Notes under the pieces: model-generated | Databases searched by the model: none | What the model saw: only the letters and a program-made list of their open reading frames with translations | Told to the model about the DNA's origin: nothing | Assembly: GCA_002070025.1 (NCBI GenBank) | Contig: MWCL01000003.1 | Location: forward strand, 1 to 64,000 | Length of the DNA: 64,000 nucleotides | Origin: Spirochaetes bacterium ADurb.Bin215 | GTDB lineage: Bacteria > Spirochaetota > Spirochaetia > Treponematales > Treponemataceae | Reading direction: 5' to 3' | Position numbers and translations under genes: made by a program | In this document: positions 1 through 20,332 of the stretch, piece by piece | How positions within the stretch are numbered: the stretch's first letter is position 1 | Layout: each line of letters starts with the position of its first letter

Positions 1-29
1 TTGTCCAGGGCTTGCATTGCACTCTCCAT
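1..29 (-). CDS. Start of next BREX gene, probably pglX methyltransferase (partial)
   Basis: Only the first codons are in the window; the gene runs off the left edge. An ATG at 29-27 follows the brxC stop directly. A second in-frame ATG at 17-15 has GGAGAG four to six bases upstream and is the likelier start (MQALD...). In most BREX operons the gene after brxC is pglX, an adenine-specific DNA methyltransferase that marks self DNA. That identity rests on gene order alone. Confidence 0.4.
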
Positions 30-3000
30 TTATTTAATCACTACCGGACCGTTCTTCAGAGCGGCAAGTACTTCCTTCTTTTTATCTGCGATCCATGCGT
101 CGAACTCAGCTTCTGTTTTAATGGTTGAGCTAGTGAAGGAAATAAATTGTGCCTTTGGTTCGAGCAACGTCGCAGCACCTTGCGATACAGTTGCGTAGCG
201 GCCGGGCAGTGCAGCAAGCCGGTCATGGAGCGCGTTTACCGAATAGGTGTCGAGCGTCGCGAGAATTGAAGCAGTTGAGTCAACGGCAATGACCGGAACG
301 GCCTTTTCTATCAGCTGATTTCGGGAGCGTAGATCATATTTTTGCTCCGGTTCAAGTTGCTTCCAGTTAGTATCATTCTCCAGAACATTTTCCCGCTTCT
401 TCCATTCTTCATCCCATTGAGCTTTAATCGAATTCAATTCACTCCGGAGAACCTGTACCATTCCGGAAACAAGAGGCGTAAAAGGATTCGGATCACTCAA
501 AAGCTGCCGTTCTTTCTCAATTGTCTGGATCTGTGCAAGATAGATTTCCGCATTTTCGAGAGAGTCAAGATGTTTTGCCAATCTCTTTGCTTCTATCCAT
601 TCCGGCCATCGTTCCTTTATACGTTCTGCGGTTTCTTGCCAATCATCAATCATACGCTCTAAGTCATCCCGGGTGTTGTAAACCGCAAGTAATTGCTCAT
701 TACCGGCGGCGGTTCGGATTGCTTCAAGGATTCTGGTGTCCGGGCGTACCGGTTTTGGCTCTTCGCCACCTGCACTGTCGGCAAGCTCGTTCATCTTCTG
801 CACAAACTGCTGCACATGGGTTAATTCGTCGTTCGGACTGACATGAATCTTGAGCGGTTCTTTCTGGAAGAGTTTCCGAATCGCGATCCGCTGGGGAACG
901 GTTATTACTGTTGATTCGATCTTGAACATAACCTTGCCCAAAGCCTTGCGTTCAAGTTCTTTGGGATCAAGTACTTTTCCACGATCATCCTGCGCACGTA
1001 CAAGCGTTGCAATCAAAAGAACTTGAAGAGCCCCGTCGACAGTATCCCGGGACCAGCCATACCCCTTGCCTTCAAAATACTCACGGATGGCTGTGCCGGT
1101 CTTTCCCCCCGCAATCAGAGAAAGGATTGCCTTGCAGACTGGATGCTGAGCAGGCTCATCATTAGAACCTACTGCTTTTAGCGCGTCGGGCGCTCCTTTG
1201 CTGGCATTCTCGTATACCTTTGCCCAGCCTACATGATCTGAAAGACTAAATTGTGGATAGAGACGGCCGAGCGCATTCTCTGCAGCTTCGCTGATTGCCT
1301 CGCGCAAATCGATTGCAGTAATTTCATTCCCGCCGCCCTGAAACACCCGCGCACCGGAAAACGCATCAGCGAGAAGCTCGTTGATTTTCCCGTCTGCAGT
1401 CTGCCGTATCGTTTCAATGGCGGCCTGGGCTTCCAAACCTTCCGGGGTACTGGTTCCCTTCCGTTTTTCAAGAGTACTCATTGCCGCCTTATACTCGATC
1501 AGATAACGCCGGAGGTCATCCCCGGATCGCTTCGGGACAAACACAAACACCGTCGGACTCTGGTTTCCCGCTTGTCGCGCATCCGAACGCACGGATTCTG
1601 CATCGGTAGACCATTCGTCCCGAAGCCATACACACACCCGAGCATCGGCATCTGATGGAAGCCTTGACTCTGTTGTAATAGAAATATCTCGCGGTACTTT
1701 TGACACCCCTTGTGTAAGGTTAAGGCGCTGGATAATCGAAGCGAATTGCTTCCTGATACGGTCATCCCGCTCGGCATCAATCCGGTGTGCCTCATTTGAA
1801 AGATGTGAATACTCGCTCTGATAATCGTCATTCCAGGCAGAACTTTCCTCAGTCTGGATACGGTATTCGTCACCAACCTTCATGATGAGTTCACAACCAT
1901 CCAATAATGCCGGAAGCCGCGCTCGGAGAGTACCGGAACCTGTCTCAAGATTTTCAACCAGAAGATCTGCAATGCTATCCACAGTTGTATGAATCCCAAG
2001 CTCGGTATTGGACGATGAAAGTTTATTAAGCAGAAAAACCAATGCGCAAGCGCGGGCAGTAAGGCGTTCATCTTCAGAACCTTGTATCCAAATCATTGTC
2101 TTGTCGTAGAGTTTCCTCGGAACAATACGATGCTGGATCAACTTTTCGCCCGTCTCAAAATAGAGATAATCACCCGGAATCACCGTTCCAAGATCTTCAT
2201 CAAGGTTGGTCTGTATCGCTTTGTGAATCATGCTGAGCTGATTCCTGAGCTGACTATCCGTTCCGGTCTGATCAAGAACGCGCAGGGCATACTCCCAGAA
2301 CCTCCGCCTGACAGGCAGTATCGGATAATCCTGCGGGAAAAACGTGATATCATCCTGCCGGTGTGCAATCCCTGTACCGGAGAGATGCCGTGAGATTTCT
2401 CCGATATTATTGTTCATTACGGTCTCGACAGGCGCTTTCACTTCCGGTTTCTTTGCCAGAATCACTTTACGTATCACGCTGTCCACGTCAGCATCGGACA
2501 ACTCCACTCGCACAGTGAAACGGCCTTCAAGTTTTTTCAGATTGCTTGTGCCCGTAACCGCCGTCTGCCCCGTACCGATAAACATGAGCTTCCCGCCGAA
2601 TTTCTTGCAGCAATCCTCTACCACTTCCTGAACATCAAGCGAACGCTGACCGTCCTCACCTATAAACTGCTGAACCTCGTCGAGAACAACAAGCGTGAGC
2701 GGAAATTTTCCTTCCTTGGTCAAGGCTTTCTTGATTGCGGTATACATTTCCTCGCTGGAAATATCCTGTACATGGGGATATAGATTTATTAGTGCCGAGG
2801 CGCAAGTGTTGGCCGACTGGAAAAGAGCAGGCTTCGCCGCCATAAGAGATTCATGCAGTTCTGTTGAAACATAGAAATTATCGAGAGCTTCATCCCAAGG
2901 AACGCCAGCTTTCTCCACGTGCTGTTTTACTTCGTCATATATCCCTTCGTCTTTAAGCCATAACACAAACCGTCCCAGTTGATAACGCTCCGGAAGCCCC

Positions 3001-15950: not shown

Positions 15951-16571
15951 TTATTCAGCTACGGCAATGTAATAGTCATAGCTGACGGAATACTTGCCCG
16001 AGGTGAAGTCCCAGAACCGGTCCTTCGTCTTGTCGGTTTCGGGAAGGTTCCATTGGACTTCAACACCGTTGTAGCCATAGAGGTTCTGGGTAGTCATGTT
16101 GATCATGAAGCATTTCCGTCCGTCTTTTTCAACCACGGTTCCATTCTCGTCTGCGGGTTTGCCCTGGGAGAAATAGGCACCGGCGGGATCACCGTCTTCA
16201 AAGTCCAGGAAGAATACCACATTTCCGTCTTCGTCTTTCAGTGTCACGTTGTCAACATAGATTACGAGGGGAACATTGGATTTCTTGGTGTTTGATTTTA
16301 CGCGAAGCAGCGCGAGTTTCTTGTGCTTCCCGTTCATTCCGTCATAGGTGATCGTTTTCTTGCTGATTTCGGTTTCATACGTATTCCACTCATTCGGAGT
16401 ATACTTGAGACCGAGTTCGTCGGTTCCCTTCAGATAAAAACACTGATAGGTCTTTGTGTAAAATCCTGCCTGAACCATCTGGGGAAGTTCTCCCGCAGGT
16501 TCGGCAAAAAGCGACGGAGCCATGCCAGCCATAAGCGCAAGCGCTGCGATCAATACAAGTCCTTTTTTCAT
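15951..16571 (-). CDS. Secreted protein, possible carbohydrate-binding beta-sandwich
   Basis: A 206-residue exported protein with a standard signal peptide (residues 1-23, cleavage near LFA). The mature part is rich in beta strands and contains VPLVIYVDNVTLKDEDGN followed by VVFFLDFEDG. That IYVDNVxLxDxxGN pattern is common in jelly-roll carbohydrate-binding modules, where the aspartate often binds calcium. It follows a polysaccharide deacetylase-like lipoprotein gene by 18 bases in one operon, which fits a glycan-binding role. No catalytic motif is seen. GGAGAAAGAC lies before the ATG. Confidence 0.65.
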   Translation of the reverse strand: MKKGLVLIAALALMAGMAPSLFAEPAGELPQMVQAGFYTKTYQCFYLKGTDELGLKYTPNEWNTYETEISKKTITYDGMNGKHKKLALLRVKSNTKKSNVPLVIYVDNVTLKDEDGNVVFFLDFEDGDPAGAYFSQGKPADENGTVVEKDGRKCFMINMTTQNLYGYNGVEVQWNLPETDKTKDRFWDFTSGKYSVSYDYYIAVAE

Positions 16572-16589: not shown

Positions 16590-17306
16590 TTATTCAACAT
16601 ATACCCACAGTACCGGCTCTTTCGGATCCGGGGTTACCCCTTTGCGCCGGAAAAGCTCGCTGACGGTTACGAATTCATAGCCCTGCTTTTTGAGTTCCGG
16701 GATAAGAATGTCCAGCGCTTCGGGTGTGGGATGCGGATACGGCTGTACATCGTGAAGAAGTACAATTGCGCCGTCCCGAACACCATCGAGTACGTTCTGC
16801 GCCCGGTCTTCGGCTTCGGTTCCGCAGCCCGCCCAGTCCATGCCGAGAACACCGCTGGTGAAGGGAAGCCCCACCGTCTCGTGAAGCACATCGCTCGAGG
16901 CAAGATTCGGCGGCCGGAAGAACTTCGGCTCCTGTCCACTGTACTTTTTGATCGCGGCAGACGTCATATCGATCGACTCGCGGATTTCTTCCGGGGTCAT
17001 CTCGTTCATACTGCCCCAGCCCCACGAGTGATTGTTGATTTCGCATCCCATTGATACCATGCGTTCAAGCGTTGGCTGAGTCGATTCGTTAATCAGCTGA
17101 CCAATCACGAAAAACGACGCAACAACATCATATTTTTCAAGCTTGTCCAGAACAAGTGCCGTCATTTCCTCATTGGGGCCATCGTCAAATGTAAGCGCGA
17201 CAAGCTTTGCATTGCTGTCGGAAGCCCTCTGATCCTTGCCGGTTGTTGTACAGGACATAAAAACCACCATGGTCACCAGTATAGTGAATACCAGTATCTT
17301 TTTCAT
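16590..17306 (-). CDS. Polysaccharide deacetylase-like (NodB fold) lipoprotein
   Basis: A 238-residue protein with a lipoprotein signal (hydrophobic to VVFMSC, lipidated Cys19), placing it on a membrane surface. NodB motif 1 (TFDDGP, 39-44), RPP (131-133) and the catalytic LLHDV near 203 are present. Motif 2 is normally HSxxH, but here it reads HSWGW (93-97): the second metal-binding histidine is a tryptophan. Active enzymes remove acetyl groups from chitin-, peptidoglycan- or PNAG-type sugars using Asp-His-His-bound metal, so this member may bind metal weakly or only bind sugar. GGAGG precedes the ATG. It is first gene of the pair with 15951-16571. Confidence 0.85.
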   Translation of the reverse strand: MKKILVFTILVTMVVFMSCTTTGKDQRASDSNAKLVALTFDDGPNEEMTALVLDKLEKYDVVASFFVIGQLINESTQPTLERMVSMGCEINNHSWGWGSMNEMTPEEIRESIDMTSAAIKKYSGQEPKFFRPPNLASSDVLHETVGLPFTSGVLGMDWAGCGTEAEDRAQNVLDGVRDGAIVLLHDVQPYPHPTPEALDILIPELKKQGYEFVTVSELFRRKGVTPDPKEPVLWVYVE

Positions 17307-17376
17307 TTATTCCTCCTCGATCCCAGTGTACAGCCGCTTTTTTTTTCCCGGAATCGGGGAATATCCGTAACCGTAA

Positions 17377-17394
17377 CTAGGTAATTTTACCTAG
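17377..17394. promoter_or_regulatory. Perfect palindrome upstream of the histidine kinase promoter
   Basis: CTAGGTAA-TT-TTACCTAG, two perfect 8-base arms, lies 15 bases upstream of the kinase -35 box and between divergent genes. It has the size of a dimeric regulator site. The LuxR-type regulator encoded downstream is one candidate. Confidence 0.6.
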
Positions 17395-17408
17395 CCCGAC
17401 ACCGGACT

Positions 17409-17436
17409 TTGAATTACGGAACAGCAATGCTATACT
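17409..17436 (+). promoter_or_regulatory. Promoter of the histidine kinase/response regulator operon
   Basis: TTGAAT (17409-17414), a 16-base spacer and TATACT (17431-17436). The ATG is only ten bases after the -10, so transcription would begin about three bases before it; no ribosome binding site is seen. A leaderless transcript is predicted. Confidence 0.65.
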
Positions 17437-17445
17437 GCACAAACC

Positions 17446-19512
17446 ATGGCGTACCGTATCGCGCTTGTACTCAAATATCTCGACGAAGAATATCAGGCAT
17501 CCATTTTCAGGGGCGCCGCGGCTGAAGCCGAGCGGCTCGGTATGGAACTCATCTGTATTCAGGGAGACCAGTTCGATCAGTCCATCTCGGGATCGTCGTT
17601 TTTTTTCTCGTCTTCCTCCGCGCTCCGCCTCGACGGTGTTCTTTTTTTGTCCTCCATACTGCTCGATAACAACACCGGCAACATTTCAAGCCGTCTCAAA
17701 AATATTTTCCCGACAATACCGCTGGTTTCAATCGGAACGGCCTTGAAGGGGATTCCCTCCATTGTATGCGAAACCACCAGACCCATCGCCGATCTGGTTC
17801 ATCATCTTGTCTCCGATCACGGATACCGCCGCTTCCTGTATCTCGGCGGACCGAGGGGAAATCATGACAACCGGGTCCGTGAAGAAGCCTTTACAAAGAC
17901 AATTCTGGGAAAAAAATGGTCAGCAAATACGTGCACCCTTGCCATACGAAACGGAGAACTGTTCAGTGAAACAGCCGGCCTGCAGCTCATCAAACAGTAC
18001 TGCAACGACCACAGTGAGCGGGACATCGATGTTATTCTCGCAGGCAGCGACGACATGGCAGCCGGTATCCGGAAATATCTCCGCACCGGCGCGCCGGAAA
18101 GCTGGAGAGACTGCCCCCTGACCGGGTTCGACGACATTCCGCTTGCCGCGACTCAACCGCTCGCCCTCACAACCATTCATCAGCCGACCGAACGAATGGG
18201 TGCCGCCGCGGCCCGGGCGCTCCACGATGTGCTGCACGGGTCTAAAACAGCTCCGGTGCTGGAGATTCCCGGACGTACCGTACTCCGCAATTCTTGTGGA
18301 TGCCAGGGATACACGGTCTCTGTCCCTCCTGAGGAATCAGAACGCGCACTCCGCCGTGAGCAGTTTCTCCGCGATGTGAGTTACTTCGGTCAGGAGATCA
18401 TGGGCGCATCGTCGGCAGAAGCCCTTGAGCGCCCGCTCCGCGAGTTTCTCACCAATGTCGCATCCCGGGACTTCGCGTTGGTCTTGTATGATTCACCCGT
18501 TTCCAGCATCCCGGACAAGGGCCGAATACAGCTTCACGTCTCCCCCCTTGCGGGTACGCAACCGTTCAGGGACATGACCTTGCGTTCCATGGACGAACTG
18601 TTTGATTCATTGCTCAAAAATCCGGTCAACGCCGGAACCCCTCGCTGTCTTTTCCATCTGCGCGCCGGAGACTATCGGCTGGGATTTGTCCTGTATTCGG
18701 TAGATCAATCCGCTCATACCTATATGAGTGTTTCCGGAATGTTCCTCTCACACGCGGTCAACCGTCTTTTCGAACTCGAACACGAGCAGGACCGCGCTCG
18801 CGAGCTTGAACGGGAAGTTGAGAAACGTACCCGCGAACTCAAGGAAGAAGCCCGTAAGCGCCGCGAGGTTGAGGAAGCGGTTCTCAAGATCAGCGATCTG
18901 GAACGACTCCGCTTCAGTCTCGATCTCCACGATGACATCTGTCAGCGTCTCGCTGCAATGACCATGATCTGCAAATGCGCCGCCGATTCAGACCCGACAA
19001 TGAAAACTCTGTTCGATATGGCGAACGAAACGCTCCGGAAAACCCGGCAGTATGCTCATGAGTCCTTCCCGGTTGAAATAGATTCACTCGATCTCTCGGA
19101 TGCCCTGAACCGTCTTTGCAGCGATATGGATACGGCGGAAAAACCGGTCATTTCCTTTACCCGGTCCGGCAGGACCCGGCCCCTCACCCGTGAGCAGAAA
19201 ATAAATGTATTCCGTATCACGCAGGAAGCCCTGCAGAATGTTGTAAAGCATGCAGAAGCCGGCAAGGTAACGGTTCAGCTGGACTACGGAACGTCGTCGG
19301 TAACACTTGCCATAACGGATGACGGGCACGGATACGAACAGAACGGAAAAGAACCGGCATTGCGGAAAAACCGCCGCCGTCCCCGGGGGCTCGGTATACG
19401 GTCCATGGAGTACCGGGCGCACCAGATGGACGGCTCGTTTACCATCACCGGAAAAAAGGGCAAGGGAACCCGGATTGAGGTTGTCATTCCGGTAACGGGA
19501 GGAGAACAGTGA
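17446..19512 (+). CDS. Cytosolic histidine kinase with LacI-type sugar-binding sensor
   Basis: The 688-residue protein has no membrane segment. Residues 1-285 match the periplasmic-binding fold of LacI/GalR regulators but without their DNA-binding headpiece: it starts IALVLKYLDEEYQASIFRGA and has GSDDMAAGIRKYL and GFDDIPLA typical of that family, ending NSCGC. After a linker and a charged coiled coil (about 440-490) comes a HisKA_3 dimerisation domain with phospho-acceptor His495 (LDLHDDICQRLA), then an HATPase with EALQNVVKHAEAG, DDGHGYE and GLGIRSMEYRA. It should sense an intracellular ligand, perhaps a sugar, and phosphorylate the response regulator, whose gene overlaps it by four bases. 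Confidence 0.88.
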   Translation: MAYRIALVLKYLDEEYQASIFRGAAAEAERLGMELICIQGDQFDQSISGSSFFFSSSSALRLDGVLFLSSILLDNNTGNISSRLKNIFPTIPLVSIGTALKGIPSIVCETTRPIADLVHHLVSDHGYRRFLYLGGPRGNHDNRVREEAFTKTILGKKWSANTCTLAIRNGELFSETAGLQLIKQYCNDHSERDIDVILAGSDDMAAGIRKYLRTGAPESWRDCPLTGFDDIPLAATQPLALTTIHQPTERMGAAAARALHDVLHGSKTAPVLEIPGRTVLRNSCGCQGYTVSVPPEESERALRREQFLRDVSYFGQEIMGASSAEALERPLREFLTNVASRDFALVLYDSPVSSIPDKGRIQLHVSPLAGTQPFRDMTLRSMDELFDSLLKNPVNAGTPRCLFHLRAGDYRLGFVLYSVDQSAHTYMSVSGMFLSHAVNRLFELEHEQDRARELEREVEKRTRELKEEARKRREVEEAVLKISDLERLRFSLDLHDDICQRLAAMTMICKCAADSDPTMKTLFDMANETLRKTRQYAHESFPVEIDSLDLSDALNRLCSDMDTAEKPVISFTRSGRTRPLTREQKINVFRITQEALQNVVKHAEAGKVTVQLDYGTSSVTLAITDDGHGYEQNGKEPALRKNRRRPRGLGIRSMEYRAHQMDGSFTITGKKGKGTRIEVVIPVTGGEQ

Positions 19513-20171
19513 AACAGTACCGTATTGTCGTAATTGACGATCACGCCATCTTTATTCAGGGTTTGTCGCTGTTGATCGGCGGACAGCGGGATTTTCATGT
19601 TACCGGATCGGCCACGAACGCCGCGGCCGGAGAAACGCTCATTGCCGAACAAAAGCCGGACATGGCGATAATCGATCTCAATCTTGGAGACGAGGACGGT
19701 CTTGATCTCATCAAGTCGGTCGCGGAGCATTTCCCGGAAACACGGATTCTCGTTCTTTCCATGCTGCAGGAGCGCTATTACGCAGAACGGTCTCTGGCTG
19801 CGGGGGCCCGGGGGTATGTCATGAAAGACGCCGCGGCGGATACGCTCATCGCGGCCATGCGTACGGTACTCGCCGGCAAAATCTGGCTCAGCGACAACGA
19901 ACAGAAACGGTACATCGATTCGCTCTTCCAGCCCCGCGCGCAAAAGTCTCCGCGCAAGAATCCGCTTGAAACGCTTTCAAACCGTCAGCTTCAGATATTC
20001 CGCATGCTCGGACGGGGACACAGCACGCCCGAAATGGCGCAAACACTTTCCATAAGCACCAAAACGGTTGACGCACACAAGGAGCAACTCAAGAAAAAAC
20101 TCGATTGCGCTTCGGCACAGGAACTGCTCCGTCTTGCCATCTCCTGGAACAAGGATGCCCCGCCGGAATAA
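19509..20171 (+). CDS. NarL/LuxR-family response regulator
   Basis: A 220-residue two-component regulator. The receiver domain (1-120) has acidic residues VVIDDH near the start and phospho-acceptor Asp56 in MAIIDLNLGDEDG. The C-terminal LuxR-type helix-turn-helix (about 150-210) reads LSNRQLQIFRMLGRGHSTPE then TLSISTKTVDAHKEQL. GTG start overlaps the kinase stop (GTGA) with GGAGGAG upstream, indicating coupled translation. It is clearly the partner of the preceding kinase. Targets are unknown; the palindrome at 17377-17394 is one candidate. Confidence 0.94.
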   Translation: MKQYRIVVIDDHAIFIQGLSLLIGGQRDFHVTGSATNAAAGETLIAEQKPDMAIIDLNLGDEDGLDLIKSVAEHFPETRILVLSMLQERYYAERSLAAGARGYVMKDAAADTLIAAMRTVLAGKIWLSDNEQKRYIDSLFQPRAQKSPRKNPLETLSNRQLQIFRMLGRGHSTPEMAQTLSISTKTVDAHKEQLKKKLDCASAQELLRLAISWNKDAPPE

Positions 20172-20198: not shown

Positions 20199-20207
20199 TG
20201 TACGTTC

Positions 20208-20281
20208 TGATCCATAGACGATTCGAACGTCCGACCTGTTGCTTAGGAGGCAACCGCTCTATCCAACTGAGCTAATGGATC
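20208..20281 (-). tRNA. tRNA-Arg (CCT anticodon)
   Basis: The cloverleaf has acceptor GATCCAT/ATGGATC, D-arm GCTCAGTTGGATAGAGC, an anticodon stem around CCTCCTAAG with anticodon CCT, T-stem with TTCGAAT loop, and discriminator A. It reads AGG. CCA is not encoded. No island is attached here. Confidence 0.92.
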
Positions 20282-20332
20282 ATTTAGCGCAGGGAAACTA
20301 TACCGTATTTTCCCCGCGCTGTTCAATGCCGC

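Follow-up and report, generated by a model that had tools for sequence, protein, structure and literature searches.

A soluble sensor kinase with a LacI-type core and its conserved operators: a probable xylan-responsive two-component system in treponemal spirochaetes

What is a sugar-repressor fold for when it has no DNA-binding headpiece and is joined instead to a histidine kinase? The question is raised by a gene pair within the stretch of DNA analysed here (the window), the first 64,000 nucleotides of contig MWCL01000003.1 of Spirochaetes bacterium ADurb.Bin215, from an assembly of 2.6 Mb in 189 contigs; of the named entries in the collections, Treponema sp. AS08sgBPME_211 and Candidatus Treponema scatequi are closest to it. 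The kinase gene is followed by that of a response regulator, the start of which overlaps the kinase stop by four bases, and a pair of candidate operators sits between the kinase gene and a divergent deacetylase gene (Table 1). The reading that we favour, and regard as moderately probable, is that of a xylan-responsive two-component system with a soluble cytosolic kinase as its receptor. In this organism it would act locally, on an esterase divergon, and in sister species it would reach xylan genes more broadly.

Table 1. Positions of the genes, protein domains and candidate regulatory elements at the kinase locus
Feature	Position	Strand	Basis
Secreted protein (206 aa) without a known family, encoded behind the deacetylase gene	15951..16571	-	
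CE4-type deacetylase lipoprotein; probable acetylxylan esterase and, in the proposed scheme, the main target	16590..17306	-	Pfam, structure-sequence matches
Likely -10 hexamer (TACACT) of the deacetylase gene	17325..17330	-	Read from the sequence
Distal, weaker candidate operator, ATCGGGGAATATCCGTAA	17353..17370	.	Matrix scan, conserved spacing
Proximal candidate operator (the palindrome noted initially), CTAGGTAA-TT-TTACCTAG	17377..17394	.	Sequence, cross-species scan
Sigma-70-type promoter match of the kinase gene, TTGAAT-16-TATACT	17409..17436	+	Sequence
Sensor histidine kinase, 688 aa, cytosolic	17446..19512	+	ORF list, Pfam, AlphaFold2, Foldseek, hydropathy
LacI/RbsR-type core	kinase residues ~1-280		
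RxSCGC junction	kinase residues 281-286		
GAF-like domain	kinase residues ~295-420		Succession of secondary-structure elements in the model
Long helix with HisKA_3 and H495	kinase residues 421-540		
HATPase_c	kinase residues 587-684		
NarL/FixJ-type response regulator (receiver and GerE helix-turn-helix)	19509..20171	+	PF00072, PF00196

The initial annotation, made from the sequence alone, had described the kinase as a cytosolic LacI-like sensor fused to a histidine kinase, and this description is borne out by domain searches, structure prediction and hydropathy. Pfam recognizes Peripla_BP_3 at residues 120-284 (PF13377, E 5.6e-15), HisKA_3 at 486-533 and a C-terminal HATPase_c domain, and finds no LacI helix-turn-helix headpiece; in the AlphaFold2 model, which was built with 21 orthologs and has a mean pLDDT of 82, the first strand starts at residue 4. 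The N-terminal core of that model resembles LacI, RbsR and CcpA structures, LacI ancestors among them, in Foldseek searches (TM ~0.8, target length). The highest hydropathy of any 19-residue segment is 1.44, so the protein has no membrane helix. Residues 295-420 match no Pfam family in any of the 22 kinase members scanned and are called GAF-like from the order of predicted elements. HisKA_3 was recognized in all 22 and HATPase_c in 21, the exception (L055) ending at a contig edge. The phosphoacceptor H495 is invariant in the ortholog alignment, the N- and G-box residues are N598, D625, G627, G648 and G650, and D56 of the regulator's receiver domain is likewise invariant among orthologs.

The sensor pocket offers an indication of what the kinase might recognize. 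Three residues, R145, D202 and D229, are invariant among 22 orthologs and a fourth, Q246, is present in more than 90%; all four align with sugar-binding pocket positions of RbsR and LacI, and because these positions are invariant or nearly so the ligand is likely a sugar. The same residues are found in the kinases of the branch associated with CE4 genes and in those of the xylan branch. Across the rest of the family, Pfam identifies the kinase's usual neighbours as GH10 enzymes with CBM4_9 and CBM9 modules, GH67, GH43, GH3, GH8 and GH30 enzymes, and ABC sugar-uptake genes. Since these neighbours are xylan genes, a xylan-derived sugar is the ligand that we infer to be most likely.

The kinase was found in 25 of 99 relatives and in 13 of 296 genomes sampled from the phylum, every one within a single order, and a scan of genome collections with short exact-type patterns returned three loci, all spirochaetal. 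The design had been called uncommon, which it is; it is not singular, given its presence in a quarter of the relatives and six further LacI-fused signalling proteins in the same genome (L002-L007). The outputs of these six, as read from their sequences, are GGDEF domains in three, an HD-GYP domain and a LuxR-type helix-turn-helix in one each, and in one a domain lost at a contig end. What the fusions have in common is the end of the LacI core. An RxSCGC motif closes the core in all 29 kinases examined and in five of the six paralogs (L002-L006), SCGT standing in its place in the remaining one, and an ordinary LacI repressor of the same genome (L008) is without it. The R-x-S part is common at the ends of LacI-family proteins; CGC, to our knowledge, is not. 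It is a speculative and rather unlikely proposal that spirochaetes of the Treponema order possess an interchangeable cytosolic LacI-type receptor, linked through RxSCGC to kinase, diguanylate cyclase, HD-GYP and LuxR outputs, in which the paired cysteines of the dimer provide a metal- or disulfide-dependent coupling needed for signalling. If that were true, the xylan two-component system would be one member of a receptor class, and the invariant CGC junction would pose a specific question for the class as a whole.

Evidence for what the system may control begins at its own promoter. The palindrome CTAGGTAATTTTACCTAG is a perfect 8+8 repeat with a 2-bp spacer, and the number of chance occurrences expected for this 18-mer in the window is 0.00. 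It lies about 15 bp upstream of the kinase's sigma-70-type promoter match, with its centre probably near -58 of that promoter (~58 bp upstream of the kinase start). An element recognizable as the same one is present upstream of orthologous kinases in ten other species, and in Ca. T. scatequi it is a perfect 10+10 palindrome. When every species was scored by a matrix made from the others, the operator at the kinase promoter was recovered in 11 of 11 training species at p 0.005-0.02 against mononucleotide shuffles. These shuffles are a rough null, and the species, being related, do not count as independent. The same place is occupied by an operator (p 0.005) in a held-out genome, G315 (locus L120), that was fetched afterwards as a test, and in the window, L040, L041 and L120 the operator is centred at -60 to -63 relative to the start codon. 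The initial annotation had suggested that the palindrome is the regulator's own site, and its recurrence at kinase orthologs, the held-out one included, supports that suggestion strongly, if indirectly. A genome-wide search had also been proposed, with uniqueness to count against the palindrome. No further copy of CTAGGTAA-N0-4-TTACCTAG was found across the 2.6-Mb assembly, yet the element is conserved across species, and for that reason uniqueness within one genome is a poor refutation test.

A second, weaker element, missed in the first reading, is found upstream of the palindrome at a distance of exactly 24 bp, which is the same in six species belonging to the window's clade. At the same offset there is an element beginning with ATCGG in L010, L011, L012 and L014 (matrix scores are good in two of the four) and one beginning with ATCAG in the test genome. 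The scores in L010 and L014 are low (~1), and conservation there therefore covers only part of the distal element. This distal operator is centred ~34 bp upstream of the TACACT hexamer, and no consensus -35 element was seen for the deacetylase gene on reading the sequence. Its centre would thus fall near -43 of the deacetylase promoter, a typical place for an activator.

The deacetylase itself contains a NodB domain (PF01522, E 5.8e-31), and its best matches among solved structures are 2c71 of Clostridium thermocellum (247 bits) and 7ax7 (169 bits), both of which are named acetylxylan esterases (PMC10967932); the best peptidoglycan deacetylase reaches 106 bits. The first of these enzymes, CtCE4, strips 2-O and 3-O acetyl groups off xylo-oligosaccharides (PMC4311478). 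The CE4 proteins of the window's clade share an unusual metal site, in which the second histidine of the usual HSxxH motif has been lost (HSWGW in the window protein, HSWSY in 2c71), and the stretch HDVQPxPHPTPEALDI is common to the window protein and 2c71. The window enzyme is thus probably an acetylxylan esterase of the CtCE4 subtype, and this likeness ties the divergon to the xylan theme of the sister species. That said, CE4 enzymes vary in substrate, which is a point against the xylan reading, and a structural grouping sets acetylxylan esterases beside peptidoglycan deacetylases (PMC10967932). The order of divergent deacetylase, kinase and regulator is kept in the window, L010, L011, L012, L014 and L120, which fall within one branch of the kinase tree (support 100/99); L055 shares the branch and has an unlike gene context. 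The deacetylase divergon had earlier been named as a possible target, and the arrangement in six species, together with the likeness to acetylxylan esterases, speaks in favour of it.

The association of the operator with xylan genes is seen in relatives. A matrix built only from kinase-flanking sites was scanned over other DNA, and its matches precede xylanase, alpha-glucuronidase, GH3, solute-binding-protein and deacetylase genes. Counting intergenic DNA within 150 bp of genes, and excluding kinase promoters and gene classes chosen post hoc, 8 matches were counted in the 1,227 bp that lie in front of xylan-type or CE4 genes, as against 5 in the 8,259 bp in front of other genes (Fisher p 5e-5). 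Elsewhere in the DNA there are 4 matches in 288,326 bp (p 2e-15), and if two sugar-gene classes are added post hoc, 11 of 17 matches are accounted for. ORFs were called mechanically, and the starts of some genes may be misplaced. In about half of the xylan-linked kinases the site stands before xylan genes and not before the kinase, which counts against the favoured reading. Genome G005 has sites ahead of a CBM4-GH10 xylanase and of an ABC permease, at a distance from the kinase. Two perfect-looking genome-wide matches stand before GGDEF, deaminase or unknown genes, so some of what the motif scan picks up is background or belongs to other targets. One ortholog group (L057, L121-L127), which adjoins chromate-transporter-like genes and serves as a negative control, has no operator by matrix scan; it is a third kinase branch that has lost the element, and its lack of the site is likewise a point against the favoured reading. 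G005 also has near-perfect matches (L091, L099 and L095) ahead of an ABC permease, ahead of a PAS-GGDEF gene and within the beginning of a different gene; the last two could be additional targets or due to chance.

The window's own genome gives a more restricted picture. At three or fewer mismatches it has 83 sites, as against 69 for a reversed control pattern, so that at this threshold no regulon beyond the divergon can be claimed, though weak sites may have escaped the search. Apart from the divergon, a single site with two mismatches (G000 C7) was found, and it lies inside a coding gene. This genome carries two GH10 genes, and the matrix scan found no operator near either, so it is through the CE4 gene and the sister species that this organism is linked to xylan.

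The architecture of the proteins, the conservation of the operators and of the gene pairing, the association of operators with xylan genes and the subtype of the CE4 enzyme come from the analysis itself; the ligand, the phosphotransfer, the binding of DNA and the direction of regulation are what we infer in the following scheme. Xylan fragments would enter the cell by uptake, and a pentose or short xylo-oligosaccharide would bind the LacI-type pocket. Closure of the two lobes would then act through the RxSCGC junction and the GAF-like domain on the helical bundle, where H495 would be phosphorylated, and the phosphate would pass to D56 of the NarL-type regulator, as the motifs of both proteins suggest. 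A dimer of the regulator would bind TAGG-N8-CCTA operators, two of which, 24 bp apart, would serve the divergent promoter pair in this genome. The distal operator, overlapping the -35 region of the acetylxylan-esterase gene, should activate that gene, and the proximal one, upstream of the kinase, should autoregulate. In sister species the same operator stands ahead of xylanase and sugar-uptake genes.

The scheme must be weighed against other readings of the same locus. The circuit may have been re-targeted to care of the cell envelope in the window's clade, with an amino sugar or muropeptide fragment as the ligand and a CE4 protein that deacetylates peptidoglycan or chitin. The top NCBIfam models for the deacetylase are PdaB and PgdA (all far below their cut-offs), the kinases linked to CE4 genes form a separate branch, and the bare GH10 genes of this genome fit such a shift as well. 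We nonetheless consider it unlikely: acetylxylan esterase structures lead by 140 bits, the altered metal site and the shared stretch point the same way, the pocket residues do not differ from those of xylan-linked kinases, and the CE4 genes of L044 and L047 share loci with xylanase genes, that of L044 having an operator of its own.

Another regulator, such as a LacI-type xylose repressor encoded elsewhere, might own the operator, the two-component system being merely one of its targets. The motif is tied to xylan genes generally and not just to the kinase, and in L048 a LacI repressor gene lies beside the kinase gene, but within the CE4 clade the operator keeps its place at the kinase promoter, and it is the regulator gene, and no conserved repressor gene, that accompanies the loci. 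LacI operators usually have a central CG, which this motif lacks, and its TAGG half-sites resemble sites of the GerE type; an outside owner seems improbable to us. It is very improbable that the primary input is a redox or metal state read by the CGC cysteines, with the LacI pocket a modulator only. The recurrence of RxSCGC in kinases and paralogs of differing output, and its absence from the ordinary repressor, would suit such an input, but the pocket residues are equally invariant, the neighbours are sugar genes, and there are only two invariant cysteines per chain.

The component parts of the favoured xylan-responsive system are already known. LacI/GalR repressors such as RbsR, CcpA and LacI share its core fold, pocket residues and cytosolic location, whereas they have a DNA-binding headpiece where this protein has none and signals instead through a histidine kinase and a separate regulator. 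The HisKA_3/NarL-type systems NarXL, UhpBA, LiaSR and DesK have similar kinase cores and regulator domains. Their kinases are membrane proteins; the one described here is soluble and has a sugar-repressor core as its sensor. The NCBIfam equivalogs for NarXL, UhpBA, LiaSR and MctSR all missed their cut-offs widely (at best 95.8 bits against 700, for MctS). Phosphorelay control of hemicellulase genes is known from XydS/R of Clostridium cellulolyticum, a Cellvibrio japonicus system and Bacteroides hybrid systems, described in a review as involving a transmembrane kinase that recognizes an external stimulus (PMC10766802), whereas the receptor here is intracellular. LacI-core GGDEF and HD-GYP fusions, among them the paralogs of this genome, have the same cytosolic sensor with RxSCGC and an output in second-messenger turnover as opposed to the phosphotransfer predicted here; a 2022 review of c-di-GMP sensing lists LacI-like periplasmic-binding domains as only putative sensors whose ligand is unknown (PMC8846402). 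No description of a cytosolic LacI-core histidine kinase, or of its operator, was found in the openly available papers searched. If a repressor core in a soluble kinase does read an imported sugar, the choice between a one-component repressor and a phosphorelay would amount to exchanging the output while the receptor stays the same. Concrete and testable predictions now exist for the operator, for its regulon in the uncultured, fibre-degrading treponemes that inhabit digesters and guts, and for the class of ligand.

Several minor features of the locus deserve mention. A tRNA-Arg gene (CCT) lies immediately downstream of the regulator gene on the opposite strand (20207-20282). The secreted 206-aa protein is kept behind the CE4 gene in three further species (L040, L011 and L120) and belongs to no Pfam or NCBIfam family; AlphaFold2 models of three sequences were poor (pLDDT 55), Foldseek gave no significant match, and the protein is predicted, with low confidence, to be all-beta. 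In Ca. T. scatequi (L011, 3519-3569), three tandem 17-bp copies (CAGACATCACTTAATTC) lie between operator and promoter and push the operator to -122. Finally, the kinase start codon of the window is just 9 nt past the TATACT hexamer, and by a crude count a TATAAT-like hexamer ends 6-9 nt ahead of the kinase start codon in 12 of 29 orthologs (the window at 17431-17446, L022, L023, L029, L030, L120 and others), compared with 48 of 307 control ORFs; the kinase mRNA looks to be leaderless or nearly so.
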